Assembly (NCBI GenBank): GCA_902805985.1
Contig: CADCUW010000165.1
Location: 1 to 18,038 of the forward strand
Direction: 5' to 3'
DNA length: 18,038 nucleotides
Source of the DNA: an uncultured Rubrobacteraceae bacterium
Lineage (GTDB): Bacteria; Actinomycetota; Rubrobacteria; Rubrobacterales; Rubrobacteraceae
Shown here: positions 658-15,433 of the stretch, piece by piece
Position numbering within the stretch: position 1 is the stretch's first letter
Layout of the letters: the number at the start of each line of letters is the position of its first letter
Notes under the pieces: model-generated
The model's input: the letters and a program-made list of their open reading frames with translations, nothing else
Databases searched by the model: none
Told to the model about the DNA's origin: nothing
Position numbers and translations under genes: made by a program

Positions 658-1656
658 CTAGTGGGCGTGCTTGTGGGCTGAGCGGTGCATCTCGTACATC
701 GCCTCTGACGGGTTCTCGCCGGTCGGCTTGGTCTGGCCGAGGTGCTTGGTGTCGGCGGCGTTCACGCCGAGGTGGTCTAGCATCTTCTCGGCGTCGCGGT
801 CGTGCTTGGCGATGACGCTGATGGTGCTCTCGATCAGATCTTTGGAGAGGTTTTTGGCGTTGAGGACGACGAGGCTCTGGGCCCAGTCGAGCGTCTCGCC
901 GATGCTCGGCGCCTTGCGCAGATCGAGCTCCCTTATGCCCTGGATGGTGCTGACGAGCTCTTCGGAGAGGGCCTCGCCGATACTGGGGGCCTTGAGGCGC
1001 ACTATCTGTAGCTCCACGTCGCCGCTCGGGTAGCCGAGCTGGAGGTGCAGGCAGCGGCGCTTGAGGGCCTCTGAGAGCTCGCGGGTGCGGTTGGAGGTCA
1101 GGATGACGAGGGGCGGGGCTTTCGCCTTTACGGTGCCTATCTCCGGTATCGAGACCTGGAAGTCCGAGAGGAACTCGAGCAAGAAAGCCTCGAACTCCTC
1201 GTCGGCGCGGTCTATCTCGTCTATGAGGAGCACGGAGGACTCTTCGGAGCGTAAAGCCTGGAGGATCGGGCGCTCTACCAGGAAGTTCTCGCTGAAGAAG
1301 GTGTCCTCCTGGCCGCGCAGGATCTCGGCCGCCTCGCTAAGGTCCTTCGCCGGCTTGAGGACCTCGCCGATCTTCTCCCGCAACACCTGCGTGTAGAGGA
1401 GCTGCTTGGAGTACTCCCACTCGTAGAGGGCCTTTGCCTCGTCGAGACCCTCGTAGCACTGGAGACGGATCAGGTCCCGGCCGGCGGCTCCCGCGAGCGA
1501 CTTCGCGAGCTCGGTCTTCCCGACGCCGGCCGGCCCCTCGACGAGAACGGGCTTGCCCAGGCGCGTCGCCAGAAAGATGACGGTCGCCAGCCGCGCGTCT
1601 GAGACGTAGTCCTGTTCCGCGAGCCTCTCCCTGACCTCTTCGATGCTCTCGAACAA
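658..1656 (-). CDS. MoxR-family AAA+ ATPase linked to the alcohol dehydrogenase
   Basis: This is a 332-residue AAA_3 ATPase. Walker A is GPAGVGKT (residues 41-48), Walker B is LLIDE with D146/E147, sensor-1 Asn is N189 in LTSNRTRE, and the arginine-finger candidates are R200/R201. The start is TTG at 1656, chosen because AGAAGGAG lies just upstream and the protein begins where the conserved fold does. MoxR ATPases couple ATP hydrolysis to remodelling or metal insertion with a VWA partner; that partner lies 11 nt downstream. The gene is 75 bp behind the mno-like dehydrogenase on the same strand. The C-terminal tail contains H324, H328, H330 and H332, suggesting metal handling. It is clearly paralogous to the ATPase at 11525-12451 (shared LQCY-x-G and the YEW[DE]Y pattern). 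The enzyme it serves is inferred from position. Confidence 0.93.
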   Translation of the reverse strand: MFESIEEVRERLAEQDYVSDARLATVIFLATRLGKPVLVEGPAGVGKTELAKSLAGAAGRDLIRLQCYEGLDEAKALYEWEYSKQLLYTQVLREKIGEVLKPAKDLSEAAEILRGQEDTFFSENFLVERPILQALRSEESSVLLIDEIDRADEEFEAFLLEFLSDFQVSIPEIGTVKAKAPPLVILTSNRTRELSEALKRRCLHLQLGYPSGDVELQIVRLKAPSIGEALSEELVSTIQGIRELDLRKAPSIGETLDWAQSLVVLNAKNLSKDLIESTISVIAKHDRDAEKMLDHLGVNAADTKHLGQTKPTGENPSEAMYEMHRSAHKHAH

Positions 1657-1731: not shown

Positions 1732-3123
1732 CTACGGCGTCGAGGCGGGCTCGCGGCCGACGCTGGCCGACTCCCCACGCCCCTCGTAGCCGTGGAGACG
1801 GCGGCCCATCGCGGGCGCCGCGCCCCAGATGTTCTGGCGGTAGCCGTTGGAGGTCTTGCGCTCCATCCCATCGTACATGCAGTCGCGCAGGATCTCCTTG
1901 GCACCATCGACGGTGAGGTCGCGCGGGTTGCCCGGCGTGCAGAGGTCGTTCATCATGTGCTCGGCCATCTTCTGCAGCTCGTCGTCGTCGCTCTGGATCG
2001 GGCCGCTGCTCTTGTTCTCGTAGTAGCCCTTGCCCATCCTCGTCTTCGGGTACTCGCTTACCTGGCCCCAGTTCTCAGGGATGCCGCAGTCCTTGGCGAG
2101 CCGGATCACGGCGTCTATGGCTTGGTCGGCGGCCTGCACGGGGTTCATGCCCCTGGTGTCCTCGCCCATCGCCGTCGCGATGTCCGCGTACTTCTCGACC
2201 GCCGCCGGCTGGTTGTAAGTCCAGACCCTGGCGATGCCGATGCCGTTGTTCAGGCCGTGATGTATGTCGTAGTAGGCGCAGACGGCGTGCGAGAGGGAGT
2301 GGAGAATACCTAGCAGGGCGGAGCTGAACGCCTGCGCGGCCATGTACTGCGCCCAGACCATCCCCTCCATGGCCTTGAAGTTCTTCGGGTTGTACGTGGC
2401 CTCGCGCAAGTTCTCCGTCACCATCCTGACGGCCTCCAGCGCCACCGGCGTGCACGAGAGGTGCTGCACCCTACCTACGTACGCCTCAGAGCCGTGGGCT
2501 ATCGTGTCGAAGCCCGTGTAGGCGACGTACTCGGGCGGCTGGGTCATGCAAAGTACCGGGTCGTTGATGGCGAGCGTCGTCGTCATCGCCCGGTCGAAAG
2601 CAACCCACTTGTGCGGGGCGTTCTCCGATGAGAGGTCCGTGATGACCGCAGCGGGTGTCGTCTCGGAGCCGGTGCCCACGGTCGTGTTGATCGCGATGTG
2701 CGGCGGGTTCTCCAGCTTCTCGGAGGCGTTGACGCCCTGGAACTCGTTTATGTTCCGCCCGTCGTGGGCGGCCACGACCCTCGCGCCCTTGGTCGTGTCG
2801 TGCGGGCTGCCGCCGCCGATGGAGACGAAGCCGTCGCACTCGGACTCGCTGAACGCCTTGTAGGCGTCCATGACGTTGTAGTCCTTCGGGTTCGTCTCGA
2901 CCTTGTCGTAGACGGAGACGGAGACGCCCGCGTTCTCGAAGTTGGTCCTGCACTCGTCGATGATGCCGGTGCCCCTGAGGCCCGTCGTCACGAACAACAC
3001 GTGCCTGAGCCCCATCGCCGCCGCCTCGGGACCGGCGTTCTCGTAAGCCCCGGCCCCGAGCAACGACCTCGGCTGCTTGAAGAACTCCTTAACCGGGAAC
3101 TCGAGAACCCTCGAAAGATCCAT
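1732..3123 (-). CDS. mno: NDMA-dependent methanol/alcohol dehydrogenase-like iron-type ADH
   Basis: A 463-residue type III (iron-type) alcohol dehydrogenase. From memory, the N-terminus (FPVKEF, TTGLRGTGIIDE, YDKVETNPKDYNVM) closely resembles actinobacterial NDMA-dependent methanol dehydrogenases, which oxidise methanol and other primary alcohols with a tightly bound NAD(P) cofactor. Visible motifs are GGGS (103-106) with D109, GTGSE (150-154), and the metal ligands D206, H210, H275 and H289, with H279 between. I chose ATG at 3123 because the conserved N-terminus begins there; an open frame continues 29 codons upstream without family similarity. AAAGGAG lies 12 nt upstream, a rather long spacing. 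A tail of about 40 residues extends beyond the usual length of roughly 420. It is followed by MoxR and VWA genes and is divergent from a GntR regulator. The physiological electron acceptor (mycofactocin in some actinomycetes) cannot be read from this window. Confidence 0.9.
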   Translation of the reverse strand: MDLSRVLEFPVKEFFKQPRSLLGAGAYENAGPEAAAMGLRHVLFVTTGLRGTGIIDECRTNFENAGVSVSVYDKVETNPKDYNVMDAYKAFSESECDGFVSIGGGSPHDTTKGARVVAAHDGRNINEFQGVNASEKLENPPHIAINTTVGTGSETTPAAVITDLSSENAPHKWVAFDRAMTTTLAINDPVLCMTQPPEYVAYTGFDTIAHGSEAYVGRVQHLSCTPVALEAVRMVTENLREATYNPKNFKAMEGMVWAQYMAAQAFSSALLGILHSLSHAVCAYYDIHHGLNNGIGIARVWTYNQPAAVEKYADIATAMGEDTRGMNPVQAADQAIDAVIRLAKDCGIPENWGQVSEYPKTRMGKGYYENKSSGPIQSDDDELQKMAEHMMNDLCTPGNPRDLTVDGAKEILRDCMYDGMERKTSNGYRQNIWGAAPAMGRRLHGYEGRGESASVGREPASTP

Positions 3124-3277: not shown

Positions 3278-3299
3278 GCTGTTACTACAATATAACAGC
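3278..3299. promoter_or_regulatory. Palindromic operator candidate in mno/gntR gap
   Basis: This is a perfect inverted repeat of GCTGTTA (3278-3284) and TAACAGC (3293-3299) around an 8-nt spacer. It contains GTTACTAC (3281-3288), a GT-N4-AC core of the kind bound by GntR-family dimers. It overlaps the predicted -10 box of the mno promoter, which fits repression. TGTTACTACAAT (3280-3291) recurs exactly at 7415-7426. The binder, presumably the adjacent GntR protein, is inferred. Confidence 0.6.
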
Positions 3300-3317
3300 C
3301 GTCTTGTACCGGGTCTA
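3289..3317 (-). promoter_or_regulatory. Predicted promoter of the mno-moxR-VWA unit
   Basis: On the minus strand, TAGACC (3317-3312) lies 17 nt from TATATT (3294-3289), matching 4/6 and 5/6 of the -35/-10 consensus. Transcription would start near 3282, giving a leader of about 160 nt. The palindrome at 3278-3299 covers the -10 box. Confidence 0.45.
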
Positions 3318-3380
3318 GCGAGCATCCGGTCCGGGACGTGCTTTATAGCATCGGCGTTGACGCGGCGCTGCCGTGACAGA

Positions 3381-3409
3381 TTGACACAACAATACTTTGA
3401 TGCTACAGA
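3381..3409 (+). promoter_or_regulatory. Predicted promoter of gntR, possibly leaderless
   Basis: A perfect TTGACA (3381-3386) is followed by a 17-nt spacer and TACAGA (3404-3409). Seven nucleotides separate the -10 box from ATG at 3417, so transcription would start at about the A of the start codon. No Shine-Dalgarno sequence precedes that ATG, consistent with a leaderless mRNA. Confidence 0.5.
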
Positions 3410-3416
3410 TGGTTAT

Positions 3417-4169
3417 ATGAGGCCGTTGTCACGAACGAGCGCGGGGACTTTGTACCATCAGATCCTGCTTGGCTTGACGGAGCGCATCGAGTCCGGGGAG
3501 GTCGGGGTGGGGGACCGGTTGCCGAGCGAGGCAGACCTGGTCGCGGAGTTCGGGGTGAGCCGGACAACGGCGCGGCGGGCTCTGGACGAGCTCAGGCGCC
3601 AGGGGCTCGTGCGTCGGGAGCCGGGGCGGGGGACCTTTCTGGCCAGCCCGAGGCTTCGGTCCAACCTCGCTTACCTGCACAGTTTCTCCGAGGAGATCGA
3701 ACGCTGGGGATACACGCCGGGGGTGAGGCTCGTCTCGCAAGAGGAGGGGACCGCCGGCGAGGAGGTGGCGGCGTGGCTCGAGGTCGGGGTGGGGGAGGAG
3801 GTGCTGTACGTGCGCCGGCTCAGGCTGGCGGACGAGCGCCCGATCTTCGTGTGCGACTCGCACCTGCCGACCGGCCGCTTCCCGGCTCTGAGGGACGCGG
3901 ACTACGGGACCGTATCCCTCACCAAGCTCATGGAGGAGAGGACCGGGCGCCGGATCGAGCACGCGCGGCAGTGGATCGGGGCGGCGACCGCCGAACCGGA
4001 CGTGGCTGGCTTGCTGGAGATAGAGGCCGGCGTTCCGGTACTCAAGATCCGTCGCATCACCTGCGTCGCCGGCGGAGAACCGGCCGAGATCGTCGAAGCG
4101 TTCTTCCACCCCGAACGATACCAGCACTACAACGAGCTCTCCGCCCAACCCGCTGAAATTACCGGCTGA
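3417..4169 (+). CDS. GntR-family (HutC/UTRA type) transcriptional regulator
   Basis: The 250-residue protein has an N-terminal winged helix-turn-helix (about residues 10-75, with PSEADLVAEFGVSRTTARRALDEL-type recognition region and a GRGTFL wing) and a C-terminal UTRA effector-binding domain (about 90-240). The start is ATG at 3417, where family similarity begins; the frame stays open upstream to 3240 but encodes nothing family-like. It lies divergent from the mno-like gene across a gap with a palindromic operator candidate. UTRA regulators typically repress and are released by a small ligand, often a pathway metabolite. I infer control of the mno unit and, through an identical 12-nt core at 7415-7426, possibly of the Mo-hydroxylase operon. 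The ligand cannot be predicted. Confidence 0.93.
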   Translation: MRPLSRTSAGTLYHQILLGLTERIESGEVGVGDRLPSEADLVAEFGVSRTTARRALDELRRQGLVRREPGRGTFLASPRLRSNLAYLHSFSEEIERWGYTPGVRLVSQEEGTAGEEVAAWLEVGVGEEVLYVRRLRLADERPIFVCDSHLPTGRFPALRDADYGTVSLTKLMEERTGRRIEHARQWIGAATAEPDVAGLLEIEAGVPVLKIRRITCVAGGEPAEIVEAFFHPERYQHYNELSAQPAEITG

Positions 4170-4604
4170 GGTCCAAACCGGCGATAGCCCTCGGCACGGG
4201 CGTCATTCCCAGCCCCTTTGGCGCCACCGCGCCCGGCGGTCTTGGCGGGCGGGCCAAAACCCACCAGGAAGTCCGGGGAGCACAGACCGACCAGGTCCAT
4301 CGGCACGAACGCGCGCCTTCGCAAATTCCTACGGCCTGTCCCGCGTGCCGCGGGCGTGATGCAAGAGATCGCGTGCTCGTTCGTTACCATTCCACATCGC
4401 GGTTGCCCTGGCGCCGCTCGAGCCCTGCGGGCACGTCACCATCGGGCGCGGGAAACGGTCTCACGCAGAGACGTGAATGCGGGCTCCGGGGAATGCCCCT
4501 TCTACGAGATTCGATAAACAGGGCAAATAGCGGGGGCAAGAAGTGAGGCAACGACGCCGGACTGCTCTAAGATGCGAGTCTTCGGGCGATCACCAGGAGT
4601 CAGC
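4170..4604. other. Intergenic region between gntR and sulfatase-like gene
   Basis: No convincing gene is present. A hairpin lies at about 4222-4246: CGCCA pairs with TGGCG outside, ACCGC with GCGGT inside, with a small bulge. A second small one (TTGGC 4242-4246 with GCCAA 4253-4257) overlaps it. Either could end gntR transcription, but no T-run follows. GTCTC (4458-4462) and GAGAC (4468-4472) form a short inverted repeat. The last 100 bp are less GC-rich and probably hold the promoter of the next gene, but no clear -35/-10 pair could be fixed. Confidence 0.4.
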
Positions 4605-6086
4605 TTGGCGCAGGAGAGGAAACCGAAAAAGGGGGCGCGGCAGCGAACACGTGGGCTGACGCGCGGGGATTTCCTGAGGGCGGTGGGGGCCGGCGTGCCC
4701 CTCCTCGGCGTGGCCGGCTGCGGCGGCGAGCTGTTTCGGGTGCCCGAAGAATACCTCCCTAGTGGAGGGCCCGGAACCGGCGGCATCGGGATGAACGTGA
4801 TCCTGGTGATCCTCGACAGCCTCAGGAAAGACCACGTCGGTGCCTACGGCAACGACCTGATACAGACGCCGGCCCTGGACGCGGTGGCCAGGGAGGGGCT
4901 TCGCTTCACCCGCGCCCACCCCGAGGCCATGCCCACCATACCGGTTAGGAGGGCGATCCATACGGGCGCGAGGACGTTCCCGCTGGGGCCGCCCGCCTAC
5001 GGCTGGACCTCCATTCCGGCGGGGCAGACGACTCTGGCCGAGGTGCTCAAGAGCGAGGGCTACGGCACCTTCCTGGTCACCGACACCTACCACCAGTTCT
5101 CGAAGAACTTCGGCCGGGGGTTCGATGCCATCCGGGCGATTCGGGGCCAGGAGAGCGATCCCTACAAAGACCCGGCTTCGGTATCCGAGGAGGACATGCA
5201 CCGGCGCTACCTTATACAGGGGGAGGGCAAGAAGGCCCGCCAGTACCTGGCCAACGTCCAGGGCCGCGAGCGGGAGGAGGACTGGTTCGCCCCCAAGGTG
5301 TTCCTGAACGCGATGGACATGCTCGAGGAGGCCCACCGCGAAAAAGGGCCATTCTTCATGGTGGTCGACTCCTACGATCCCCACGAGCCCTGGGACCCCC
5401 CCAAGAAGTATGTAGACCTCTACGGCGAGGGCTACGAGGGGAAGGACCCGCTAAACTCCAACTATGGTAGCGACGACTACCTCACCGACCGCCAGCTGCT
5501 GCGTATGCGGGCGCTCTACGCCGGGGAGGTCACGATGGCCGACCGCTGGCTGGGCGAGTTTCTCGGGAAGACCCACGACATGGGGCTCATGGAGCGCACC
5601 CTGCTGGTGGTCGTGAGCGACCACGGCCACGCCTTCGGCGAGCACGACGTGACCGGCAAGCCCCCATACGCCCTGTGGTCGGAGATCACGGACATCGTCC
5701 TCCTGATGCGACACCCCGAACGGAAGATGGCCGGGCAGGCCTCCGCCCACCTCGCCTCCACCCACGACGTGGCGCCGACCATCCTGGGCGCCCTGGGCAT
5801 AGAGCCGCCGCCCGCGATGGGCGGCGAGGACTTCTCGGTCATGTTCGACGGCAAAGACCATGAGGGCCGGGACTACCTCACCTCTGGCTACAAGGACCAC
5901 GTGTGGGCCCGCGACGGACGCCGCGTGCTGTTCTGCCGCAACGACGGCTCGGGGCCCAGGCTCTACGACGCGCAAAGCGACCCCCGCCAGGAGAGGGATC
6001 TGGCCGAGGACGAGCCCGACACGGTGGGCAGGATGTTCGAGGATTACGTGCTCAAGGACGCGGGAGGGTCGCTCCCCCCTGCCTGA
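4605..6086 (+). CDS. Sulfatase-superfamily lipoprotein with Thr at the nucleophile position
   Basis: A secreted, alkaline-phosphatase-fold hydrolase (DUF/sulfatase type). I prefer TTG at 4605 because AGGAG (4595-4599) sits 5 nt upstream; ATG at 4572 gives 504 residues but has no ribosome binding site. Numbered from ATG 4572, the N-terminus has a basic region, LTRGDFLRAVGAG (Tat-like but lacking the twin Arg) and a lipobox VAGC ending at C50, so a lipid-anchored extracellular protein is likely. Metal-site motifs are ILDSLR (D82) and VSDHG (D350, H351) with H358. The sulfatase signature C/S-x-P-x-R reads T122-I-P-V-R126, so formylglycine formation is not expected. The protein is more likely a phosphodiesterase or phosphotransferase-like enzyme (LtaS relatives use Thr), or has an unknown ester substrate. 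It stands alone, with gaps on both sides. Confidence 0.85.
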   Translation: MAQERKPKKGARQRTRGLTRGDFLRAVGAGVPLLGVAGCGGELFRVPEEYLPSGGPGTGGIGMNVILVILDSLRKDHVGAYGNDLIQTPALDAVAREGLRFTRAHPEAMPTIPVRRAIHTGARTFPLGPPAYGWTSIPAGQTTLAEVLKSEGYGTFLVTDTYHQFSKNFGRGFDAIRAIRGQESDPYKDPASVSEEDMHRRYLIQGEGKKARQYLANVQGREREEDWFAPKVFLNAMDMLEEAHREKGPFFMVVDSYDPHEPWDPPKKYVDLYGEGYEGKDPLNSNYGSDDYLTDRQLLRMRALYAGEVTMADRWLGEFLGKTHDMGLMERTLLVVVSDHGHAFGEHDVTGKPPYALWSEITDIVLLMRHPERKMAGQASAHLASTHDVAPTILGALGIEPPPAMGGEDFSVMFDGKDHEGRDYLTSGYKDHVWARDGRRVLFCRNDGSGPRLYDAQSDPRQERDLAEDEPDTVGRMFEDYVLKDAGGSLPPA

Positions 6087-6392
6087 TACGCCCCCCTTCC
6101 ACACCAGAAGCCGCTCCGCCGTCCGCCAGCGTGTACTTCTGAGAAGGCCGTTATCGCGAACTTCTTACAATCCTCAGAGCGAGGTTGCAGGACCTACTTC
6201 TACAAGGTTCTTCGAGTTGGGCCGGACGCCGTTGCGCTCTTACTTCTGGCCACCTCGTGCCGCCTGAAGGGCCCGCGGCGGACCAAAGGCGGGCGGTATG
6301 TGCATCTTCGGCTTCGTGACGAGGTCTCGACGGACCAACCGTGGCGGATCTTTGGGTTAACATGCCCCGCCGGAGCGAAGAAGCGGGGGCGT
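6087..6392. other. Intergenic region before thioesterase gene, with repeated ACTTCT
   Basis: No gene is supported. The hexamer ACTTCT occurs four times in the same orientation at 6135, 6160, 6196 and 6242. A weak hairpin (CCGC with GCGG) lies near 6261-6280. GTTAAC at 6357-6362 is the most AT-rich patch near the thioesterase start and may belong to its promoter, but no -35 box was recognisable. Confidence 0.35.
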
Positions 6393-6854
6393 ATGAAAGA
6401 ATCGGAGCAGAGAAGCGCGGAGAGGGAGGCGCCGGAGACGCGGGACCGCTACCCGCATTTCCTGACCATAGCGACGCGCTGGATGGACAATGATGTCTAC
6501 GGCCACGTCAACAACGTCGTCTATTACTCGTACTTCGATACCGTCGTGAACGAGTACCTTATCCGCGAGGGCGTCCTGGATATCGAGGGGAGCCCGGTCA
6601 TCGGCCTCGTCGTCGAGACCCAGTGCCGCTACTTCGAGCCCGTTACTTTTCCGGACACGCTCCACGCGGGTTTGCGGGTCGCGCGGCTGGGGCGCAGCAG
6701 CGTGCGGTACGAGATCGGGCTCTTCAAGAACGACTCGGAGACGGCCGCGGCGCAGGGCCACTTCGTCCACGTCTACGTCGAGCGGGAGGGCCGCAAGGCG
6801 ACCGCGCTGCCGCAGGAGATGCGGGCGGCGCTGGAGAAGATCTCGGCCGGCTAG
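6393..6854 (+). CDS. Hotdog-fold acyl-CoA thioesterase (4HBT/YbgC-FadM type)
   Basis: The 153-residue product carries the 4HBT signature WMDNDVYGHVNNVVYYSYFD (residues 30-49). D34 aligns with the catalytic Asp of 4-hydroxybenzoyl-CoA thioesterase, and HVNN follows. Such enzymes hydrolyse acyl-CoA or aryl-CoA thioesters in the cytoplasm. The start is ATG at 6393, preceded by a G-rich stretch (GCGGGGG) as a weak ribosome binding site; the frame is open upstream to 6300 without family similarity. The first 20 residues are charged and probably disordered. Its stop codon overlaps the stop of the convergent GAF gene within one CTAG. The substrate is unknown, and neighbours give no clear pathway. 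Confidence 0.88.
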   Translation: MKESEQRSAEREAPETRDRYPHFLTIATRWMDNDVYGHVNNVVYYSYFDTVVNEYLIREGVLDIEGSPVIGLVVETQCRYFEPVTFPDTLHAGLRVARLGRSSVRYEIGLFKNDSETAAAQGHFVHVYVEREGRKATALPQEMRAALEKISAG

Positions 6855-7327
6855 GAACCGGCCAGCGAGGCGACGCGAGGGGCGACGACCGCGGCGAGCT
6901 CTTCGAGCAACGCCTCGTCTTCGGCGGTAAACGCGCCGACTATATCGGAGTCGATGTCGAACTGGCCGACGATCTGCCCTTCGTGCCGGATCAGGACGAC
7001 GATCTCCGAGCGGGTGTGGATGGAGCAGGCCAGGTAGTTCTCGACCTCGCGCACGTCCTCGACGACCTGGTTTTTGTCCTCGGCCACGGCCGTCCCGCAG
7101 ACGCCCTCCCCGACCTCGATCCGGTCGTGGTCCGCCGGCGCGGTGCTGGGCCCGAGCACGAGCACTCCGCCCTTCATCAAATAGATGCCGCTCCAGTCCC
7201 AAGACGGGTGCGCGTCGTGTGCCAGCCGCACCACCGCTTCCAGCACCTCTTCGTCCGGGCCGTCCGAGGCAACGAGCCCCTCCGCCTCCGCCCGAAGGTC
7301 CTTCTCCAGCGCCGTGTGATCTGCCAT
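6851..7327 (-). CDS. GAF-domain protein resembling free methionine-(R)-sulfoxide reductase
   Basis: A 158-residue single GAF domain (about residues 25-155). Conserved blocks are WDWSGIYL, LVLGP, GEGVCGTAV, VVEDV, SEIVVLI and GQFDIDSD. These match fRMsr (E. coli YebR-type) enzymes, which reduce free Met-R-sulfoxide using cysteines. C77 and C101 are 24 residues apart, matching C94 and the catalytic C118 of the E. coli enzyme. The position of the third cysteine (C84) is H67. Activity may persist with altered recycling, or the protein may be a sensor. The start is ATG at 7327 with AGAGGA about 9 nt upstream; the longer frame reaching 7621 is not family-like. It diverges from the Mo-hydroxylase operon across a 350-bp gap with an operator candidate. 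Confidence 0.88.
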   Translation of the reverse strand: MADHTALEKDLRAEAEGLVASDGPDEEVLEAVVRLAHDAHPSWDWSGIYLMKGGVLVLGPSTAPADHDRIEVGEGVCGTAVAEDKNQVVEDVREVENYLACSIHTRSEIVVLIRHEGQIVGQFDIDSDIVGAFTAEDEALLEELAAVVAPRVASLAGS

Positions 7328-7677
7328 GAAACGTTCCTCTCGACTCCTTGAAACCATCCCTTCGATGATAACGCCGCCGCGCCGTTCTGTCCCGGACACG
7401 CGCCATTGCGCAATTGTTACTACAATGTTACGGTTCGGAACGATGGGGTGATTTGCGGGTCGCGGAGGGTGGTTTCGAGCGCGGAGAAAGAGGCCTGTGC
7501 TACACTGCCCGCACTTCGGGAAGAAAGGGGAAAAGGGCATAGGAACGCCTTGTACGGCAGGGTAAGCGTGCTGTATGTGATCCCGATGACGGCGGCCCGG
7601 TGGCGGTAGGGGAGACTGCATGCGGGTGGTCGGATACCGGCCTTGGGTGTGGGGAAGTCGTAGGGAAAGGAAAATAC
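7328..7677. other. Leader region between GAF gene and Mo-hydroxylase operon
   Basis: The 350-bp divergent gap has no convincing gene. It holds the operator-like element at 7413-7431, a TACACT (7501-7506) that could be a -10 box without an evident -35, and a purine-rich tract around 7511-7547. TTGTAC (7550-7555) lies 18 nt before TATGTG (7574-7579), a weak promoter candidate. No molybdenum-cofactor riboswitch was recognised. A small open frame at 7406-7609 has no ribosome binding site and is not called. Confidence 0.4.
7413..7431. promoter_or_regulatory. Second GntR-type operator candidate, upstream of the Mo-hydroxylase operon
   Basis: ATTGT (7413-7417) and ACAAT (7422-7426) form a perfect inverted repeat around TACT, giving the core GTTACTAC (GT-N4-AC). 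The 17 nt at 7415-7431 match 3280-3296 at 15 positions, including TGTTACTACAAT without change. The site lies about 250 nt before the coxS-like start and 85 nt before the GAF start, so it could act on either. TACAAT (7421-7426) resembles a -10 box but has no matching -35. Confidence 0.5.
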
Positions 7678-8142
7678 GTGCGAAGGATTCAGGTAAGCGT
7701 AAACGGCGTCGCCTACGAGCACGAGGTCGAGCCTCGGTTGCTCCTGGTGCATTACTTGCGTGAGGGGCTGAACCTGACGGGGACCATGGTCGGGTGCAAC
7801 ACCTCCAACTGCGGGGCGTGCACCGTGCTTTTGAACGGGGAGTCGGTCAAGTCTTGCACGCTGTTTGCGGTGCAGGCCGACGGGCATGAGATCACCACGG
7901 TCCAGGGCCTCCAGACCAACGGCGACTGGCATCCCATGCAGACGGCCTTCCACGAGCAGCACGCCTTGCAGTGCGGGTACTGCACGCCAGGCATGATCCT
8001 GGCCTCCGTCAGCTACCTCAAGGAGAACCCGAACCCGAACGAGGAAGACATCCGGGAGGCTTTGGAGGGCAACTACTGCCGCTGCACCGGTTACGAAAAC
8101 ATCGTCAAGGCCGTGCAGCAGGCCGCCGGCCAGACGAGCTAG
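7678..8142 (+). CDS. coxS: Molybdenum hydroxylase small subunit, two [2Fe-2S] clusters (CoxS-like)
   Basis: The 154-residue protein carries electrons from the Mo site to FAD in the xanthine-oxidase family. The plant-type ferredoxin domain ligands are C40, C45, C48 and C60; the helical second domain supplies C99, C102, C134 and C136 (CGYCTPGM and CRCTGY blocks). All eight ligands are present. The start is GTG at 7678, preceded by GGGAAAGGA at a normal distance; the frame is open upstream to 7600 but is not conserved. It is the first gene of the operon, 15 bp before the large subunit. The sequence places it in the CO dehydrogenase/aldehyde-oxidase-like group, but the small subunit alone does not identify the substrate. 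Confidence 0.95.
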
Positions 8143-8157
8143 AAGGAGGCGCTAGAG

Positions 8158-10677
8158 GTGACGCAGGCACCGGAACGCTACATGGGGAACGGTCTACCCC
8201 GCAAGGAGGACCCGAACCTCGTAACCGGCAAGGCCAACTGGACCGACAACATCAAGCTGCCAGGCATGGTCCACATGTCCATGCTCAGGAGCCCCTTCGC
8301 CCGGGCGAAGGTAACGAAGCTCGACGTCTCGGCCGCGCTCGAGAGGCCCGGCGTCGTCGCTGCCTTCACGGGGGCTGACCTCGCCGAGGAGTGGCCCGGC
8401 GGCGTGCCGTGCGCGGCGGTGGTCTCCGAGGAGCAGAAGACCCCGTTCTTCCCGCCCATCGTCACGGACGAGGTGCGCCACGTGGGGGACGTTGTGGCGG
8501 TGGTGGTCGCGAGCGACCGCTACGCCGCGCAGGACGCCCTCGAGTTTATCGAGGTCGACTACGAGCCCCTGCCGGCGATCGTGAACATGGAGGATGCGCT
8601 TAAGGCGGACTCCCCGCTGGTTCACGAGGACCTCGGGACCAACGAGTGCTTCACCTACACGGCGAACGTCGGGAACACCGACGAGCTCTTCGACCGGACG
8701 GACGACTCTGGTGACGCGGGCGCGGAGATCCGGGGCCCCGAGATCCAGGGGCAAGGCGACACCGATGAGGCCTTCAGGCGGGCGAGCGTGGTCATCAAGG
8801 AGCGTTACATCCAGCAGCGTCTGCTCCCAACCGCCATCGAGCCGCGGGCTTCCGTCGCCTACCCCGATCCCGGTCACGGCGGGTACGTCATCTACACGTC
8901 CACCCAGGTGCCCCACCTCGCCAAGATCGTGCTCTCGCTGGCGACCGGGATACCGGAGAACCAGATCCGGGTCGTGGCGCCCGACGTGGGCGGCGGGTTC
9001 GGCTCCAAGCTGAACATCTACCGCGAGGAGATCCTGGCGGTCGTGCTGGCCAAGACGCTCGGCGTGCCCGTCAAGTTCGTCGAGGACCGCTCGGAGAACT
9101 ACCAGGCGACCATCCACGGGCGGGGCCAGATCCAGGACATCGAGCTCGCCGCCGACTCCGAGGGCAAGATCCTCGGGATGCGGGTGAAGCTGCTCGACGA
9201 CATGGGCGCCTACCTGCAGCTCCTGACCCCGGTCATCGCGATCAGCGGCGGGGCCATGTTCCCCGGCGTCTACACCTTCGACAACTTCTCCATCGAGATC
9301 AAGGGCGTCTTCACCAACCTAACGCCGACCGACGCATACCGCGGCGCCGGGCGTCCCGAGGCCTGCTACGCCATCGAGAGGGCCATCGACTCCCTGGCCC
9401 GCGAGCTGGACATGGACCCGGCCGAGATCCGGCGCAGGAACTTCTACGAGCCGTTCGACGAGCCGACCGCCAACCCGGCCGGCCTTATGTACGACTCCTT
9501 CAACCTGCAAGGGACGCTCGACCGGGCGATAGAGCTCGCCGACTACGACGCTTTGCGCGAGGAGCAGCGCCGCAGGCGCGAGGCGAACGATCCGGTGCAG
9601 CTCGGGATCGGCATGTCTACCTACACCGAGATCTGCGGCCTCGGGCCCTCGCACGCTCTGGCGGGCCTCGGTATCGGCGGCGGCGGCTGGGAGGTCGCGA
9701 GCGTCAGGATGCTCGTGACCGGCAAGGTCGAGGTCGCCACAGGCACCTCCCCGCACGGCCAGGGCCACGAGACGAGCTGGTCCCAGATCGCCGCCGACGT
9801 CCTCGGCGTAACCCCCGACGACGTCGAGGTCCTGCACGGCGACACGGGCATCGTCCCCTTCGGCCGCGACACCTACGGCTCCCGCTCTCTTGCCGTCGGC
9901 GGCATCGCGGTGTACCACGCCGCCAACAAGGTCGTCGAGAAGGGCAAGAAGATCGCCGCGCACATGCTCGAGGCCTCCGAGGATGACATCGAGTTCGAGG
10001 GCGGAAAGTTCAGCGTGGCCGGCTCGCCCGACCAGAACGTCGGCATCGGGGACGTCGCGGGCGCCGCGTACCTGGGCAACGACCTGCCCGAGGGCATGGA
10101 GCCGACGCTCAACGAGACGATGACCTTCGACCCGCCCAACTTCACCTTCCCGTTCGGCGCGCACATCTGCGTCACCGAGGTGGACACGGAGACGGGAGCC
10201 GTGAAGATCCGCGACTACATCGCCGTGGACGACTGCGGCCCGGTCATCAACCCGACCATCGTTGACGGCCAGTTGCACGGGGGGCTCGCGCAGGGCATCG
10301 CCCAGGCGCTCTACGAGGGGGTCATCTACGACGAGGAGGGCAACCTGCTCACCGCGTCGATGGTGAACTACATGATCCCCGGCGCCCCGGAGCTGCCTAA
10401 CTACACCCTGGACCGGACCGTTACGCCCTCGCCGAGCAACCCGCTCGGGGTCAAGGGTGTAGGCGAGGCGGGGACCATCGGCGCGCCGCCCGCGGTCATC
10501 AACTCCGTGGTGGACGCGCTCTCGCCGATGGGGATCAGGCACATAGACATGCCCGCCTCGCCGATGCGGGTGTGGAAGGCCATCCAGAACGCGCAAGGGT
10601 TGCAGTCGGGCGACCGGCAGGAGGACGCCTCGCTGGGGGCGAGCGCCGCCGACATCAAGCAGGGGGGTGACGCGTAA
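8158..10677 (+). CDS. coxL: Form II CO-dehydrogenase-like molybdenum hydroxylase large subunit
   Basis: This is the 839-residue Mo/cofactor-binding catalytic subunit. The start is GTG at 8158 with AAGGAGG 8 nt upstream. Motifs include GGGFG (278-282), the active-site loop AYRGAGR (393-399), GQGHET (about 535-540) and GVGEAG with the likely catalytic E770. True form I CO dehydrogenases have AYxCSFR with a Cys binding copper; here that Cys is absent and the loop is the form II type. CO oxidation is therefore doubtful, and an aldehyde, a purine-like or another carbonyl/N-heterocycle substrate is possible. An acidic, Gly-rich stretch around residues 178-203 looks like an insertion relative to typical CoxL. 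The cofactor is presumably molybdopterin cytosine dinucleotide, consistent with a MocA-like gene downstream. The stop TAA overlaps the next ATG by one base. Confidence 0.95.
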
Positions 10678-11528
10678 TGATCCCGATGGCCTTCGACTAC
10701 GAGGTCGCCGAATCCGTCGACCACGCCATAGAGCTTCTCGGCCAGCACGGCGAGGACTCGAAGCTTCTCGCTGGCGGGCACTCCTTGATCCCGATCATGC
10801 GCCTCAGGCTGGCGGCACCCACGGTCCTCATCGATCTGGGACACCTGGACGACCTGCGCTACGTGCGCGACGGGGGCGACCACCTCGCCATAGGCGCCAT
10901 GACCCGCCACCGCGACCTGCTCTTCAACGACCTCGTCAAGGAGCACTGCGGCATCATGGGCTATACCGCCGGTTTGCTCGGCGATCCGTCCGTCCAGCAC
11001 CGCGGCACTCTGGGCGGCACTTTGGCCCACGGCGACTCCTCGGGCGACATGCCGAGCGTCATCACGGCGCTCGAAGGGGAGCTGACGATCAAGGGCCCGG
11101 ACGGCGAGCGGACCGTCAAGGCCGCGGAGTTTTTCCAGGACTACATGATGACGGTCCTCGGCGAGCAGGAGGTCGTCACGGAGGTCAGGGTCCCCAAGCT
11201 CGGCCAGAACACCGGCTGGTCGTACAAGAAGTTCAGCCGACGCTCGCAGGACTGGGCGACGGTGGGTGTCGCGGCGGTCGTCGAGCGCTCCAACGGCTCC
11301 ATCGGCTCCGCCCGCATCGCGCTCACCAGCATGGGCGCGACACCCATCAGGGCGACCGCCGTCGAGCAGGCGCTCTCGGGTGCCTCCCCCGACGCCGTCG
11401 CCGAGGCGTCCCAGTCCGCCGATGAGGGTACCAACCCCTCCTCCGACGACGCGGCGTCGGCCGAGTTCCGGCGCCACCTGGCGCGGGTGTGGACCCGTCG
11501 GGCGGTTGAGGAAGCTTTAAGCCGTTGA
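10677..11528 (+). CDS. coxM: Molybdenum hydroxylase medium subunit, FAD-binding (CoxM-like)
   Basis: The 283-residue FAD subunit receives electrons from the [2Fe-2S] subunit and passes them on. FAD-binding motifs are AGGHS (32-36) and TLGGTLAHGD (111-120), followed by a CO-dehydrogenase flavoprotein C-terminal domain. The ATG at 10677 overlaps the large-subunit stop (TAATG), with AGGGGGG 9 nt upstream. The gene order small-large-medium differs from the classical coxMSL order but is common in form II-like operons. A low-complexity Asp/Ser/Ala stretch lies near residues 240-265. Its stop overlaps the TTG start of the MoxR gene, so translation of the accessory genes is coupled to it. Confidence 0.94.
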   Translation: MIPMAFDYEVAESVDHAIELLGQHGEDSKLLAGGHSLIPIMRLRLAAPTVLIDLGHLDDLRYVRDGGDHLAIGAMTRHRDLLFNDLVKEHCGIMGYTAGLLGDPSVQHRGTLGGTLAHGDSSGDMPSVITALEGELTIKGPDGERTVKAAEFFQDYMMTVLGEQEVVTEVRVPKLGQNTGWSYKKFSRRSQDWATVGVAAVVERSNGSIGSARIALTSMGATPIRATAVEQALSGASPDAVAEASQSADEGTNPSSDDAASAEFRRHLARVWTRRAVEEALSR

Positions 11529-12451
11529 GCGAGGCCGTAAACGGACGCCGGGGGGCCCTGCCCCCCGGCGTTTCGCTTTCCGGGGAGCTGAAGGAGAGGC
11601 TGCGCGAGGGGAGCTACCTCGCCGGCGAGGGGCTCGCGACGGCGATCTTCCTGGCCCTCAAGCTGCAGAAGCCACTCTTCCTGGAGGGCGAGGCAGGTGT
11701 CGGCAAGACCGAGGTGGCCAAGGTGTTGAGCCGGATGCTCTCGACGCCCCTGATCCGCCTCCAGTGCTACGACGGCATAGACGTCAACCAGGCCGTCTAC
11801 GAATGGGACTACGCCCGCCAGCTCCTGCACATCCGCACGGCAGAGGCGCTTGGCACGACCGGCGAGGACCGCTCGCGCCTCGAAGACGAGCTGTACACGC
11901 GCCGGTTTCTCGTGAACCGGCCGCTGCTCCAGGCCATCGAGCACCACGGAGACAACCCCCCGGTCCTGCTCATCGACGAGGTTGACCGGGCCGACGACGA
12001 GTTCGAGGCCTACCTGCTCGAGATCCTCTCCGACTACTCCGTGACGATCCCCGAGATAGGCACCGTCAGGGCCGAGCGCCCGCCGGTCGCCATCCTGACC
12101 TCCAACCGGACCCGCGAGGTCCACGACGCCCTCAAGCGCCGCTGTCTGTACTTTTTCATAGACCACCCGGACATGGAGCGGGAGGTCGAGATCGTGCGCC
12201 TCAGGGTGCCCGAGGCCGAGGAGAGGCTCACCCGCCAGGTCGCCCGCGCCGTGCAGCGCCTGCGCGGCATGGACCTCTACAAGCCGCCCGGCGTGGCCGA
12301 AACTCTAGATTGGACCGAGGCGCTCGTGGCGCTAGGGGCGAAGGAACTGGACGAGGCCCTGATCGAGGCGACCATGGGCTCGGTCTTGAAGTACCACGAG
12401 GATCAGCAGAGGGTCCTCGTCCAGTCCCTGAACCTTCTCGCCGGGAGCTAG
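11525..12451 (+). CDS. coxD: MoxR-family AAA+ ATPase of the Mo-hydroxylase operon (CoxD-like)
   Basis: A 308-residue AAA_3 ATPase with Walker A GEAGVGKT (55-62), Walker B LLIDE (D151/E152) and sensor-1 in LTSNRTRE. In carboxydotrophs CoxD is needed to mature the active site, working with the VWA protein CoxE encoded next. TTG at 11525 overlaps the coxM stop (TTGA); no other ATG, GTG or TTG precedes the conserved fold. The first 20 codons contain a perfect 11-bp stem-loop, so the true start may be debatable. Compared with the paralogue at 658-1656, it lacks the His-rich C-terminal tail. It probably hexamerises in the cytoplasm. Confidence 0.93.
   Translation: MSEAVNGRRGALPPGVSLSGELKERLREGSYLAGEGLATAIFLALKLQKPLFLEGEAGVGKTEVAKVLSRMLSTPLIRLQCYDGIDVNQAVYEWDYARQLLHIRTAEALGTTGEDRSRLEDELYTRRFLVNRPLLQAIEHHGDNPPVLLIDEVDRADDEFEAYLLEILSDYSVTIPEIGTVRAERPPVAILTSNRTREVHDALKRRCLYFFIDHPDMEREVEIVRLRVPEAEERLTRQVARAVQRLRGMDLYKPPGVAETLDWTEALVALGAKELDEALIEATMGSVLKYHEDQQRVLVQSLNLLAGS
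11545..11571 (+). terminator. Terminator-like hairpin inside the 5' end of coxD
   Basis: ACGCCGGGGGG (11545-11555) pairs perfectly with CCCCCCGGCGT (11561-11571) across a CCCTG loop. A pyrimidine-rich TTCGCTTT follows. It looks like an intrinsic terminator but lies within codons 7-16 of the MoxR frame. It could attenuate expression of accessory genes relative to the three enzyme subunits. Confidence 0.55.
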
Positions 12452-12456
12452 GAGGC

Positions 12457-13599
12457 ATGGCGCCCGAGACCGCGCCCATGCTCCCCATGCTCCGCATGTC
12501 GGTCGCCTTCGGGCGCCTGCTCAGGCGGGCCGGGCTCGCGGCGGGACCCGACCGGGTGGTCGGTTTCGCCACGGCCCTGGAGGAGCTAGACGTGGGCAAC
12601 CGCGAGGACGTGTACTGGGCCGGGCGGGTGACGCTGTGCTCCCGTCCCGAGGACTTCGAGATGTACGACCGGGCGTTCAAGGTGTTCTGGGAGGGGAGGG
12701 AGGGCTTGAAGGTCCCGGACCCGCCGGGGAGCACGTTCTCCATCCGGCTCTCCCCGGACTCCGTGCAGCCGCCCAAGAAGAGCGCGGAGGAGAGCGAGGA
12801 AGGCTCGGAGGCGGTGAGGCTCCGCTACAGCCCCGTGGACGTGCTCCGCCGAAAGGACTTCGCCGACTGCACCCCCGAGGAGTTCGTGGAGCTGTACAGG
12901 CTCATGGCTGACATGCGCCTCTCGGGGGCCACGAAGCGCTCGCGACGGCTGGAGCCGGCCCACAGGGGCCGCCACGACCAGCGTAGGACCCTGCGCGGCG
13001 CGATGCGCACCGGCGGGGAGCCCATGCGACATCGCTACCGGAAGGCCAGGGACCGGCCCCGGCGGGTCGTGCTGCTCTGCGACGTCTCGGGGTCTATGGC
13101 CTCCTACAGCCGGGCGCTCCTCAGGTTCATGCACGCGGGCGTTGCCTCGGGCGAGCCGGTCGAGGCCTTCGTCATGGGGACCCGGCTCACGCGTGTCACC
13201 CGCGAGCTCGCGACCCGCAACCCCGACCGGGCGCTGCGCGAGGCCTCGAAGGCCATAGAGGACTGGTCCGGGGGGACCAGGCTCGGGGACACGGTAAAGG
13301 AGTTCGTGGACGTGTGGGGCCAGCGCGGGATGGCCCGCGGCGCCGTCGTGGTCCTGCTCTCCGACGGCTGGGACCGCGGGGACGTGGAGGTGCTCGCCGA
13401 CGCGATGCGGCGCATCCACCGGCTCGCCCACAGCGTCATCTGGGTGAACCCCCTGAAGGCCGCCCCCGGCTACCAACCACTCGCCCGCGGGATGGCCGCG
13501 GCGCTCCCTTACGTGGACGTCTTTCTCTCAGGCCACAACTTCGAGAGCCTGCAAGAACTGGCCTACGCCGTAGCCGGGGCTTCCCGCGGGGGAGGTTAG
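12457..13599 (+). CDS. coxE: CoxE-family VWA-domain protein
   Basis: The 380-residue protein has a C-terminal VWA domain with MIDAS motif D209-V-S211-G-S213 (LLCDVSGSM), a downstream Thr in SGGTRLGD and a third motif in LLSDGWDRGD. The N-terminal half is a CoxE-type helical region with an acidic linker (SAEESEEGSE) and a basic stretch (TKRSRRLEPAHRGRHDQRR). CoxE partners the MoxR ATPase in cofactor maturation of CO dehydrogenase-type enzymes. The start is ATG at 12457, 5 nt after the coxD stop; GGGAG lies 9 nt upstream, while AGGAGG is only 1 nt away, so ATG at 12478 is an alternative. No His-rich run is present, unlike the VWA protein at the left edge. Confidence 0.92.
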   Translation: MAPETAPMLPMLRMSVAFGRLLRRAGLAAGPDRVVGFATALEELDVGNREDVYWAGRVTLCSRPEDFEMYDRAFKVFWEGREGLKVPDPPGSTFSIRLSPDSVQPPKKSAEESEEGSEAVRLRYSPVDVLRRKDFADCTPEEFVELYRLMADMRLSGATKRSRRLEPAHRGRHDQRRTLRGAMRTGGEPMRHRYRKARDRPRRVVLLCDVSGSMASYSRALLRFMHAGVASGEPVEAFVMGTRLTRVTRELATRNPDRALREASKAIEDWSGGTRLGDTVKEFVDVWGQRGMARGAVVVLLSDGWDRGDVEVLADAMRRIHRLAHSVIWVNPLKAAPGYQPLARGMAAALPYVDVFLSGHNFESLQELAYAVAGASRGGG

Positions 13600-13600
13600 A

Positions 13601-13630
13601 ATGCCTGAACAGAGGAGGTGTTCGTTATGA
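13601..13630 (+). CDS. Possible 9-codon minicistron between coxE and the XdhC-type gene
   Basis: ATG at 13601 lies 5 nt after GGAGG (13591-13595) and encodes MPEQRRCSL. Its TGA (13628-13630) overlaps the ATG (13627) of the next gene as ATGA. Its AGG-AGG codons form that gene's Shine-Dalgarno. It ends with TTA, a codon that is rare in such high-GC genes. Translation could couple coxE to the next gene, but the frame is too short to be certain. Confidence 0.35.
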   Translation: MPEQRRCSL

Positions 13631-13941
13631 ATCCAGTGGTAGATAAGGTCGCTGGCTGGAGCAAAGAGGGCAAGAAGTCCGCCCTCGCCACGGTCGTAAA
13701 GGTCGAGAGGAGCGGGCCCCTAGGGCCCGGCACCTCGATGGCCATAAGCGAGGACGGGCAGGTCGTCGGGTCGGTGAGCGGCGGGTGCGTGGAGCCCGCG
13801 GTCTACGAGGAGGCGATGATGGCCATCGAGAGCGGCAAGCCGAAGCTTCTCTCCTACGGCATCTCGGACGACGAGGCGTTCGGGGTTGGCCTGACGTGTG
13901 GTGGGATCATCCACATCTTCGTCGAGCGGGTTGACTGGTGA
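13627..13941 (+). CDS. XdhC/CoxI-family protein, N-terminal domain only
   Basis: A 104-residue stand-alone XdhC_CoxI domain with SGPLGPGTSMAIS and the family signature GSVSGGCVEPAVYEEA. XdhC-type proteins bind molybdenum cofactor and help sulfurate and insert it into xanthine-oxidase-family enzymes. The start is ATG at 13627 with AGGAGG 8 nt upstream; GTG at 13618 lies inside that Shine-Dalgarno and is unlikely. Its stop overlaps the GTG of the next gene (GTGA). The split into a short N-terminal-type protein and a longer Rossmann-containing partner is seen in other actinobacterial Mo-hydroxylase operons, from general knowledge. The conserved Cys in GGCVE is present here, whereas the partner lacks this motif. 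Confidence 0.9.
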   Translation: MNPVVDKVAGWSKEGKKSALATVVKVERSGPLGPGTSMAISEDGQVVGSVSGGCVEPAVYEEAMMAIESGKPKLLSYGISDDEAFGVGLTCGGIIHIFVERVDW

Positions 13942-14804
13942 GCCTGCTCTTTCGCTGGCACGCCTTGCTTCGGGAGCAGTCGCCGGTCGCCATCGCGACC
14001 GTGATCGAAGGCCCGGGGGACTCTTTGGGCGGCAAGCTGCTCGTTACGCCAGACGACCACGAGGGAGGTGCTGGCGACGAGGATCTCGACAGGGCGATAG
14101 TCGAGGCGGCCCGCGGGCTCCTGGAGGGCGGCAAGACCGAGACGCGCCACTTCGGCCCGCGCGGGCAGCGCCGCATGGAGGACGTCGCCGTCTTTATACA
14201 GAGCTTCGCCCCGCCGCCCAAGATGTATGTCTTCGGGGCCATAGACTTCGCCTCGGCCGTAGCCAGGATCGGCAAGTTCCTCGGGTACCGTGTGATCGTC
14301 TGCGACGCCCGCGCCGTCTTCGCCACGCGAGACCGCTTCCCCTCGGCCGACGAGGTCGTAGTCGCCTGGCCCGACGAGTTCCTCAAGACGGCCGAGGTGG
14401 ACCACCGCAGTGTCATCTGCGTCCTGACCCACGACCCCAAGTTCGACGTGCCGGTGCTGAAGGCCGCGCTCGATACGCCCGCAGGGTACATCGGGGCGAT
14501 GGGCAGCCGCCGCACCCACAATAACCGCACGGCGCGCCTCAAGGAGGAGGGCGTCATCGACGAGCAGCTCGGGCGCGTCAGCAGCCCCATCGGGCTTGAC
14601 ATCGGGTCGCGCACCCCGGAGGAGACGGCGGTGGCGATAGCGGCTGAGATCATCGCGTTTCGCACGGGCCACGCGGGCGGGCGGCTCGCGGAGCGCACGG
14701 GCCCGATCCACACCCCCGACCCGGACGTGTCGGAGTCACCGGACGCCAAAGCGGAGCTTGACGCGAGGCGGGAGGCGGCGGGTGCGGCCCGCGACGCGCG
14801 TTGA
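13938..14804 (+). CDS. XdhC-family protein with C-terminal Rossmann domain
   Basis: The 288-residue protein has a degenerate XdhC_CoxI-like N-terminal domain (about 1-90; PVAIATVIEGPGD and GGKLLV, but no GSVSGGCVE) and an XdhC Rossmann domain (about 95-245). The latter shows MYVFGAIDFASAV, VIVCDAR, THDPKFD and YIGAMGSRRT. It probably handles the molybdenum cofactor before insertion into the large subunit, perhaps as a complex with the preceding short XdhC-type protein. The start is GTG at 13938, in a 4-nt overlap with the previous stop. The last 45 residues (PDPDVSESPDAKAEL and an Arg/Ala-rich end) look disordered. Confidence 0.9.
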   Translation: MSLLFRWHALLREQSPVAIATVIEGPGDSLGGKLLVTPDDHEGGAGDEDLDRAIVEAARGLLEGGKTETRHFGPRGQRRMEDVAVFIQSFAPPPKMYVFGAIDFASAVARIGKFLGYRVIVCDARAVFATRDRFPSADEVVVAWPDEFLKTAEVDHRSVICVLTHDPKFDVPVLKAALDTPAGYIGAMGSRRTHNNRTARLKEEGVIDEQLGRVSSPIGLDIGSRTPEETAVAIAAEIIAFRTGHAGGRLAERTGPIHTPDPDVSESPDAKAELDARREAAGAARDAR

Positions 14805-15433
14805 GCGGGGTCTCGGCCGTCGTGCTCGCCGCGGGCGCGGGGAGCCGCTTCGGGGGTGGGAAGCTCCTGGCCCCGTTCTGGGGGCGGACCCTGATCGAAG
14901 CCACCCTGGAAGGGCTGCGCGGGGCTCCGGTGGATGAGACAATCGTGGTGGTCGGAGCCGAAGGGGAAAGGTTGCGCAGCGTAAGCGCCGCACACGGGGC
15001 CCGCGTGGCCATAAACCGCGCGTGGGCTGAGGGAATGTCCACCTCGGTCGGCGTGGGATTCGACGCCTGCTCGCCGGGGTCCCGCGCCGCGGTCGTCGTC
15101 CTCGCGGACCAGCCGCTCGTGGGGGCCGGGGCGGTGGCGCGGCTCGTCGAGGCCTTCGAGGACGGGGCGCGGATGGCGGTTGCGACCTACGGCGGGGAGC
15201 CGCGCAACCCGGCGCTCTTCGCCAGGGAGGTATGGCCGCTCCTTGAGCGTGAGATGTCGGGGGACAGGGGGGCGAGGGCCGTCCTCGCGCGCCACCCGGA
15301 ACTGGTAACGGAGGTGCCTTGCGATGACGTAGCGGACCCGGCCGACGTGGATACTGTGGAAGACCTGCGGCGTCTGGAGGAGCTGGCCGCTCCCGGGCGT
15401 GGCGGGGCGATCCGTCAAAGGAGAGACAGATGA
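14801..15433 (+). CDS. MobA/MocA-like molybdenum-cofactor nucleotidyltransferase
   Basis: A 210-residue NTP-transferase-fold protein. The N-terminal signature is VVLAAGAGSRFGGGKLL (residues 7-23), which binds the nucleotide; LADQP with D103 supplies the metal ligand. In Mo-hydroxylase operons such proteins usually act as CTP:molybdopterin cytidylyltransferase (MocA), making the MCD cofactor needed by CoxL-type subunits. A GTP-using MobA activity cannot be excluded from motifs alone. TTG at 14801 overlaps the stop of the XdhC gene (TTGA). Its own stop overlaps the coxG start (ATGA), so five consecutive genes are translationally linked. Confidence 0.88.
   Translation: MSGVSAVVLAAGAGSRFGGGKLLAPFWGRTLIEATLEGLRGAPVDETIVVVGAEGERLRSVSAAHGARVAINRAWAEGMSTSVGVGFDACSPGSRAAVVVLADQPLVGAGAVARLVEAFEDGARMAVATYGGEPRNPALFAREVWPLLEREMSGDRGARAVLARHPELVTEVPCDDVADPADVDTVEDLRRLEELAAPGRGGAIRQRRDR

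Follow-up and report, generated by a model that had tools for sequence, protein, structure and literature searches.

Comparative analysis of an 18,038-nt stretch of DNA from an uncultured Rubrobacteraceae bacterium (the whole stretch is hereafter the window, and its genome G000) points to a local regulon in which a GntR/HutC-type regulator would bind two copies of a 20-bp site, YTGTTACTACAATRYWACRG, with the repeated 12-mer TGTTACTACAAT as its core. The predicted targets are the operon of an iron-containing alcohol dehydrogenase (ADH), probably the regulator's own gene, and a Mo-hydroxylase operon. We give this reading a probability of about three in four; it appears well supported for the ADH and fairly supported for the Mo-hydroxylase. 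The features concerned are as follows.

658..1656, minus strand: MoxR-type AAA ATPase (Pfam AAA domains), downstream of the ADH gene
1732..3123, minus strand: iron-containing ADH, related to NDMA-dependent methanol dehydrogenase (Pfam Fe-ADH; TIGR04266, 523 bits)
3279..3298, plus strand: putative operator 1, CTGTTACTACAATATAACAG, between the ADH gene and gntR; 16-20 of 20 positions kept in 11 genomes with a GntR orthologue
3289..3317, minus strand: predicted ADH promoter, TAGACC-N17-TATATT, best score in a consensus scan, -10 box within operator 1
3381..3409, plus strand: predicted gntR promoter, TTGACA-N17-TACAGA, 7 bp before the ATG, read from the letters
3417..4169, plus strand: gntR, GntR/HutC-type regulator of 250 aa with UTRA domain (Pfam GntR 72 bits, UTRA 122 bits)
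4572-6086, plus strand: sulfatase-family protein
6393-6854, plus strand: thioesterase-family protein
6851-7327, minus strand: GAF protein
7414..7433, plus strand: putative operator 2, TTGTTACTACAATGTTACGG, upstream of the Mo-hydroxylase operon; kept before Mo-S in G003, G004, and G006
7496..7506, plus strand: likely extended -10 of the Mo operon, TGTGCTACACT, from a pattern search of Mo-S upstream regions
7678..11528, plus strand: Mo-hydroxylase subunits S (7678-8142), L (8158-10677), and M (10677-11528) (Pfam, NCBIfam; AYRGAGR loop)
11525..16161, plus strand: helper genes, namely MoxR ATPase, VWA, XdhC-type pair, MobA-type transferase, and CoxG-like (NCBIfam/Pfam for ATPase, VWA, XdhC, MobA, and CoxG; the ORF at 13627-13941 is named by position only)

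The initial annotation had drawn attention to exact copies of TGTTACTACAAT at 3280-3291 and 7415-7426, and scans of both the window and the assembly bore this out. In the 4.2-Mb assembly (707 contigs, 88.6% complete, the portion for which the count is valid), exact copies occurred at these two positions alone, with one further place at one mismatch, while the window held no third copy at up to two mismatches. A scan of this assembly for unrelated copies of the 20-bp site at up to three mismatches returned two places, both of them the window sites. Also as first described, 15 of 17 nt are identical between 3280-3296 and 7415-7431, each copy is intergenic, and the GT-N4-AC core is present together with the arms GCTGTTA/TAACAGC at the first copy and ATTGT/ACAAT at the second. 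The proposed unit of 17 nt, in contrast, had to be revised: The conserved unit spans ~20 nt and consists of a TGT-N4-ACA core followed by a downstream AC(A/G)G box. Both copies lie between divergent genes: operator 1 is flanked by the starts of the ADH gene (3123, 165 bp away) and of gntR (ATG at 3417, 128 bp away), and operator 2 by those of the GAF gene (7327) and Mo-S (7678). Reading site 2 as a direct repeat with an 11-bp period was dropped, since site 1 has its second half in inverted orientation.

Exact 12-mer repeats are common in the window (159 observed versus Markov means of 78, 78, and 105 for orders 1-3), so that repetition alone is little proof. A repeat with at least nine A/T, however, was observed once and arose in just 0, 0, and 2 of 200 shuffles at the same orders, in agreement with the earlier view that such an AT-rich pair is unlikely by chance. 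For TGTTACTACAAT itself, shuffling of the window gave 0.06 expected copies, and two copies were reached in 0 of 200 shuffles.

The site is conserved wherever the regulator is found. GntR orthologues with 66-94% identity occur in G003, G004, G006, G005, G001, G008, G015, G032, and G023 among 60 genomes searched, and additionally in G060; the window's genome brings the set to 11. In G008, gntR lies in two frames. Relatives of the GntR protein belong to uncultured Rubrobacteraceae and Rubrobacter genomes at seven of eight loci, the eighth being a weak 39% match elsewhere. In all 11 genomes gntR and the ADH gene flank the site (the G015 contig carries only the first 24 ADH residues), and the mean pairwise ungapped identity was 0.87 over the 20-bp site, falling to 0.44-0.45 in the 20 bp directly to either side and to 0.27-0.28 farther out. 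The loss of site 1 in close relatives, named at the outset as grounds for doubt, was thus not seen; the site is kept while its flanks diverge. The 15 sites compared (11 at ADH, 4 at Mo-S) all share TGT at positions 2-4, TACAAT at 8-13, and C at 18, and in every one GT and AC stand at the HutC spacing (GT-N4-AC). At a locus in G004 (L035:9691-9735), the half AGCTGTTACTAT is repeated twice more beside the full site at a 12-bp spacing, like extra half-sites.

Beyond these genomes the site is nearly absent. In a scan of 39 genomes of the family with the 17-mer at up to two mismatches, exact copies were confined to genomes with this GntR. Across 396 genomes of the phylum, YTGTTACTACAATRYWACRG at up to two mismatches gave 12 exact places in 8 genomes, of which 8 lay between gntR and the iron-ADH gene and 4 before the Mo-hydroxylase; as the pattern was derived from these same sites and misses the more diverged ones of G008, G032, and G023, the telling point is that it is exact nowhere else. 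Two-mismatch places outside the family numbered 6 in 6 genomes and look like background, because a reversed control pattern gave more (16) in that scan. We considered a wider regulon and set it aside: a third place in G006 (4015708-4015727, three mismatches) has no window proteins within 11 kb, and similar single places at three mismatches in G015 (on its contig 92, with no window protein) and G005 were not counted as targets.

Presence of the site follows the regulator rather than the ADH gene. When 21 ADH upstream regions were scored against the 20-bp site, those with a GntR orthologue reached 16-20 of 20 in 10 of 10 cases (G015 being additional), whereas the site was found in 0 of the 11 regions without an intact GntR, which scored 11-14, no higher than shuffled versions of the consensus can reach (maximum 14-15). 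For site 1, the co-occurrence that the initial annotation had proposed to check therefore holds. Among these 11, four belong to a more distant ADH (51-53%), G034 offers 606 bp upstream of the ADH to the contig end, and G017 has a helix-turn-helix ORF upstream of its ADH that looks like an insertion. G061 presents a regulator in decay (L150:6225-7333): its GntR match stops at about residue 178 and resumes in another frame, and the operator beside the broken gene has decayed to 14 of 20. The ORF that follows is one we take to be transposase-like. On the ADH tree (20 rows), the label "site plus GntR" needs five changes, at least three of them forced by well-supported branches, and shows no significant clustering (59 of 500 shuffles gave as low a count). 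A single inherited event therefore does not account for the match of site and regulator. In the sister pairs G032/G034 and G023/G011, one member has both site and GntR and the other has neither. In G010 and G011, the ADH and Mo-S genes are directly divergent, ~0.5 kb apart, with no regulator between them and no site. On comparative grounds the site is tied to this regulator: the two occur together, they were gained or lost jointly more than once, and the site is nearly confined to genomes that carry the regulator.

The regulator itself is of the GntR/HutC type. Its GntR winged helix and UTRA domain both score above the Pfam cut-offs, and it falls below that of TIGR02018, the equivalog model for the HutC histidine-utilisation repressor (144.6 versus 220 bits). 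Its best solved match is NagR (YvoA) of Bacillus subtilis (118.5 bits), which like DasR combines GntR and UTRA domains, a GT-N4-AC core, and an operator on the target promoter; the window's system differs from both in its operator centre, TACT, and in its targets. In the portion of the NagR structural report consulted (PMC4333415), Arg48 reads G-4, Arg38 reads G-5, and Gly69 anchors the wing. The aligned residues of the window's GntR are Arg49, Ala39, and Gly70, invariant in eight sequences, and the operator half-site is T(-5)G(-4)T(-3), without the second G, as expected from the missing second arginine. By analogy with the NagR contacts, Arg49 and Ala39 would fit this TGT half-site. According to the sections used of a study of HutC-type motifs (PMC4494728), four nucleotides between GT and AC are usual, the consensus centre is MTAK although some HutC-type motifs differ, weaker extra boxes lie 7-12 nt from the site centre, and, where one site lies between divergent operons, it usually acts on both. 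The downstream AC(A/G)G box would fit such an extra box, and the centre of the 15 sites, TACT or close forms, departs from MTAK.

Predicted promoters place the two operators differently. The initial annotation had set the first copy on the -10 box of a predicted mno gene. The overlap held, with the -10 box of the best ADH promoter inside the site in 8 of 10 GntR genomes (counting a tie in G005 and shifted boxes in G001 and G032); in G060 this promoter ranked second by 0.1 and in G008 it was outside the first four. The mno label needs qualifying: the ADH falls below the cut-off for NDMA-dependent methanol dehydrogenase. A -10 box inside an operator, as predicted here, is typical of a repressor that blocks its promoter. 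The element TTGACACAA of the gntR promoter aligned in 10 of 11 upstream regions, the exception being G023. This promoter (3381-3417) nearly reaches the ATG, so that a leaderless transcript is likely, and the similarity of its -10 region (TGATACTACAAA in several relatives) to the operator core makes self-control possible. On the Mo side, 11 of 16 Mo-S upstream regions contain TGTGCTACACT or a near variant, whether GntR is present or not, and this element is likely the operon's own promoter. The extended -10 (TGTGCTAAACT in G006) starts 81, 82, 71, and 81 bp past the start of the 12-mer in G000, G003, G004, and G006, respectively; the single shorter spacing is off by about a helical turn, which is suggestive at n = 4. 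The likely Mo start is thus ~90 bp downstream of site 2, and a strong promoter over this site, on either strand, was not present in all four genomes.

Site 2 is kept in four of the six genomes with a separate Mo operon (G000, G003, G004, and G006), and no site was found before Mo-S in G005 and G001; the Mo-hydroxylase half of the regulon is weaker for that reason. In G015, G060, and G032, Mo-S directly follows gntR and one site serves for both; G008 has Mo-L on another contig; and in G023 the regulator, site, and ADH are present and no close Mo-L was found. The gene divergent from Mo-S at site 2 encodes the GAF protein in G000 and G003, and a small PucR-type helix-turn-helix ORF in G004 (L035:4710-5036) and G006 (L036:6096-6422); a similar PucR-type ORF stands beside Mo-S in G012. 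The sulfatase-family gene between gntR and the thioesterase gene was not found in the other gntR neighbourhoods mapped, one relative occurring instead in G017. The MoxR ATPase gene adjoins the ADH in the relatives mapped, where the contig allows, with the exception of G020.

We weighed three other explanations of the paired site. The regulator may control only the ADH gene and itself, with site 2 serving the divergent gene beside it or being a leftover. Several observations would suit this account: site 2 is far from the Mo start; two of the six genomes whose Mo operon stands apart lack it; no close Mo-L accompanies the regulator, site, and ADH of G023; and in G000 and G003 the best consensus promoter directed away from Mo-S is located near site 2. 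Yet Mo-S adjoins site 2 in each case, whereas the divergent neighbour varies, and a single site stands before both genes where Mo-S follows gntR; we consider such a restricted role unlikely. That a different regulator binds the site and travels with the cluster by coincidence seems highly improbable: binding by this GntR is a prediction and the TACT centre departs from the usual HutC centre, but site and GntR are gained or lost jointly where the ADH gene persists, and the base-contacting residues fit the core.

A chance repeat, or a plain promoter word in which TACAAT acts as a -10 box, can be dismissed almost entirely, even though 12-mer repeats abound in the window and TACAAT, invariant in all 15 sites, resembles a -10 box. 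Chance is ruled out by the shuffles, the genome scan, and the conservation, which covers 20 bp; a mere promoter word is ruled out by the lack of a recurring -35 box upstream of TACAAT (judged by eye) and by the absence of the site at ADH genes without GntR. Against the predicted regulon as a whole stand the missing site 2 in G005 and G001, its position over no conserved predicted promoter, the recurrence of the Mo promoter form without GntR, the pairing of ADH and Mo-S without this GntR in G010 and G011, the lack of a close Mo-L in G023, and a core, TACT, that departs from the HutC centre MTAK given in the consulted sections of PMC4494728. The initial proposal of one regulon joining ADH and Mo-hydroxylase is nonetheless favoured by the comparative evidence, less firmly in its Mo half.

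Under a regulon of both operons, a GntR dimer would contact the TGT-N4-ACA core through Arg49 and, since site 1 covers the ADH -10 box, would block the ADH promoter until a pathway metabolite bound in the UTRA domain released it. At the Mo operon it may act from a distance, by looping or by activation, because site 2 lies well upstream of the likely start. Both enzymes would then serve one route, from alcohol to aldehyde to acid.

What the enzymes resemble would fit such a route. The ADH scores 523.2 bits against TIGR04266 (NDMA-dependent methanol dehydrogenase; cut-off 625). Although such dehydrogenases are associated with mycofactocin genes in the genome, according to the part consulted of PMC3023750, MftC exceeded its cut-off in 0 of 17 genomes with an ADH copy of at least 75% identity (several of them incomplete assemblies) and in 6 of 39 family genomes, and a mycofactocin link of this ADH was set aside. 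In G030, G012, and G024 (L148, L149, and L154), a 51% ADH relative, a Mo-hydroxylase, and mycofactocin MftC lie within ~20 kb, so the pairing of ADH and Mo-hydroxylase is not limited to genomes with this regulator. In the MnoSR/mno system of Mycobacterium smegmatis, too, an NDMA-type alcohol dehydrogenase has a regulator of its own, with one palindromic site upstream of the gene; unlike the window's GntR, MnoSR is a two-component system whose loss lowers mno expression, and the portion of the report drawn on here describes no Mo-hydroxylase (PMC11303327).

The Mo-hydroxylase cluster resembles aerobic CO dehydrogenase operons (CoxMSL) in its S, L, and M subunits and its MoxR, VWA, XdhC, MobA, and CoxG-like helpers, and the best solved match of the large subunit is CoxL 8uem (658 bits). 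Form I aerobic CO dehydrogenase has a Cys-bearing active-site loop, AYxCSFR. The window's large subunit aligns AYRGAGR where CoxL 8uem has AYACSFR, and it is on this basis what we take to be a "form II" CoxL. It scores 723.5 bits against TIGR02416 (aerobic CO dehydrogenase; cut-off 991), and for the S and M subunits the highest score is to glyceraldehyde dehydrogenase, again under the cut-offs. ModA and ModB, for molybdate uptake, are above cut-off within the cluster in G006 and G005, and transporter genes of the same Pfam families occur in G004, G020, G024, and G028.

The operator pair is real and, by comparative evidence, so appears to be the local HutC-type regulon, new as an instance and ordinary in kind; in the titles and opening lines of abstracts surveyed, we recognised no description of a GntR linked to such an ADH or Mo enzyme. 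The regulon is of interest chiefly because it connects the ADH with the Mo-hydroxylase. It is possible, though somewhat short of probable, that the HutC-type switch pairs a mycofactocin-independent NDMA-type ADH with a "form II CoxL" enzyme that is the aldehyde-oxidising second step of the same pathway, not a CO dehydrogenase, with molybdate uptake genes in the cluster of some relatives. To our knowledge, it is not settled which substrates form II CoxL-type enzymes act on, and a regulator tying one of them to an ADH would offer a concrete guess, an aldehyde, while the operator sequence could be used to look for further targets.
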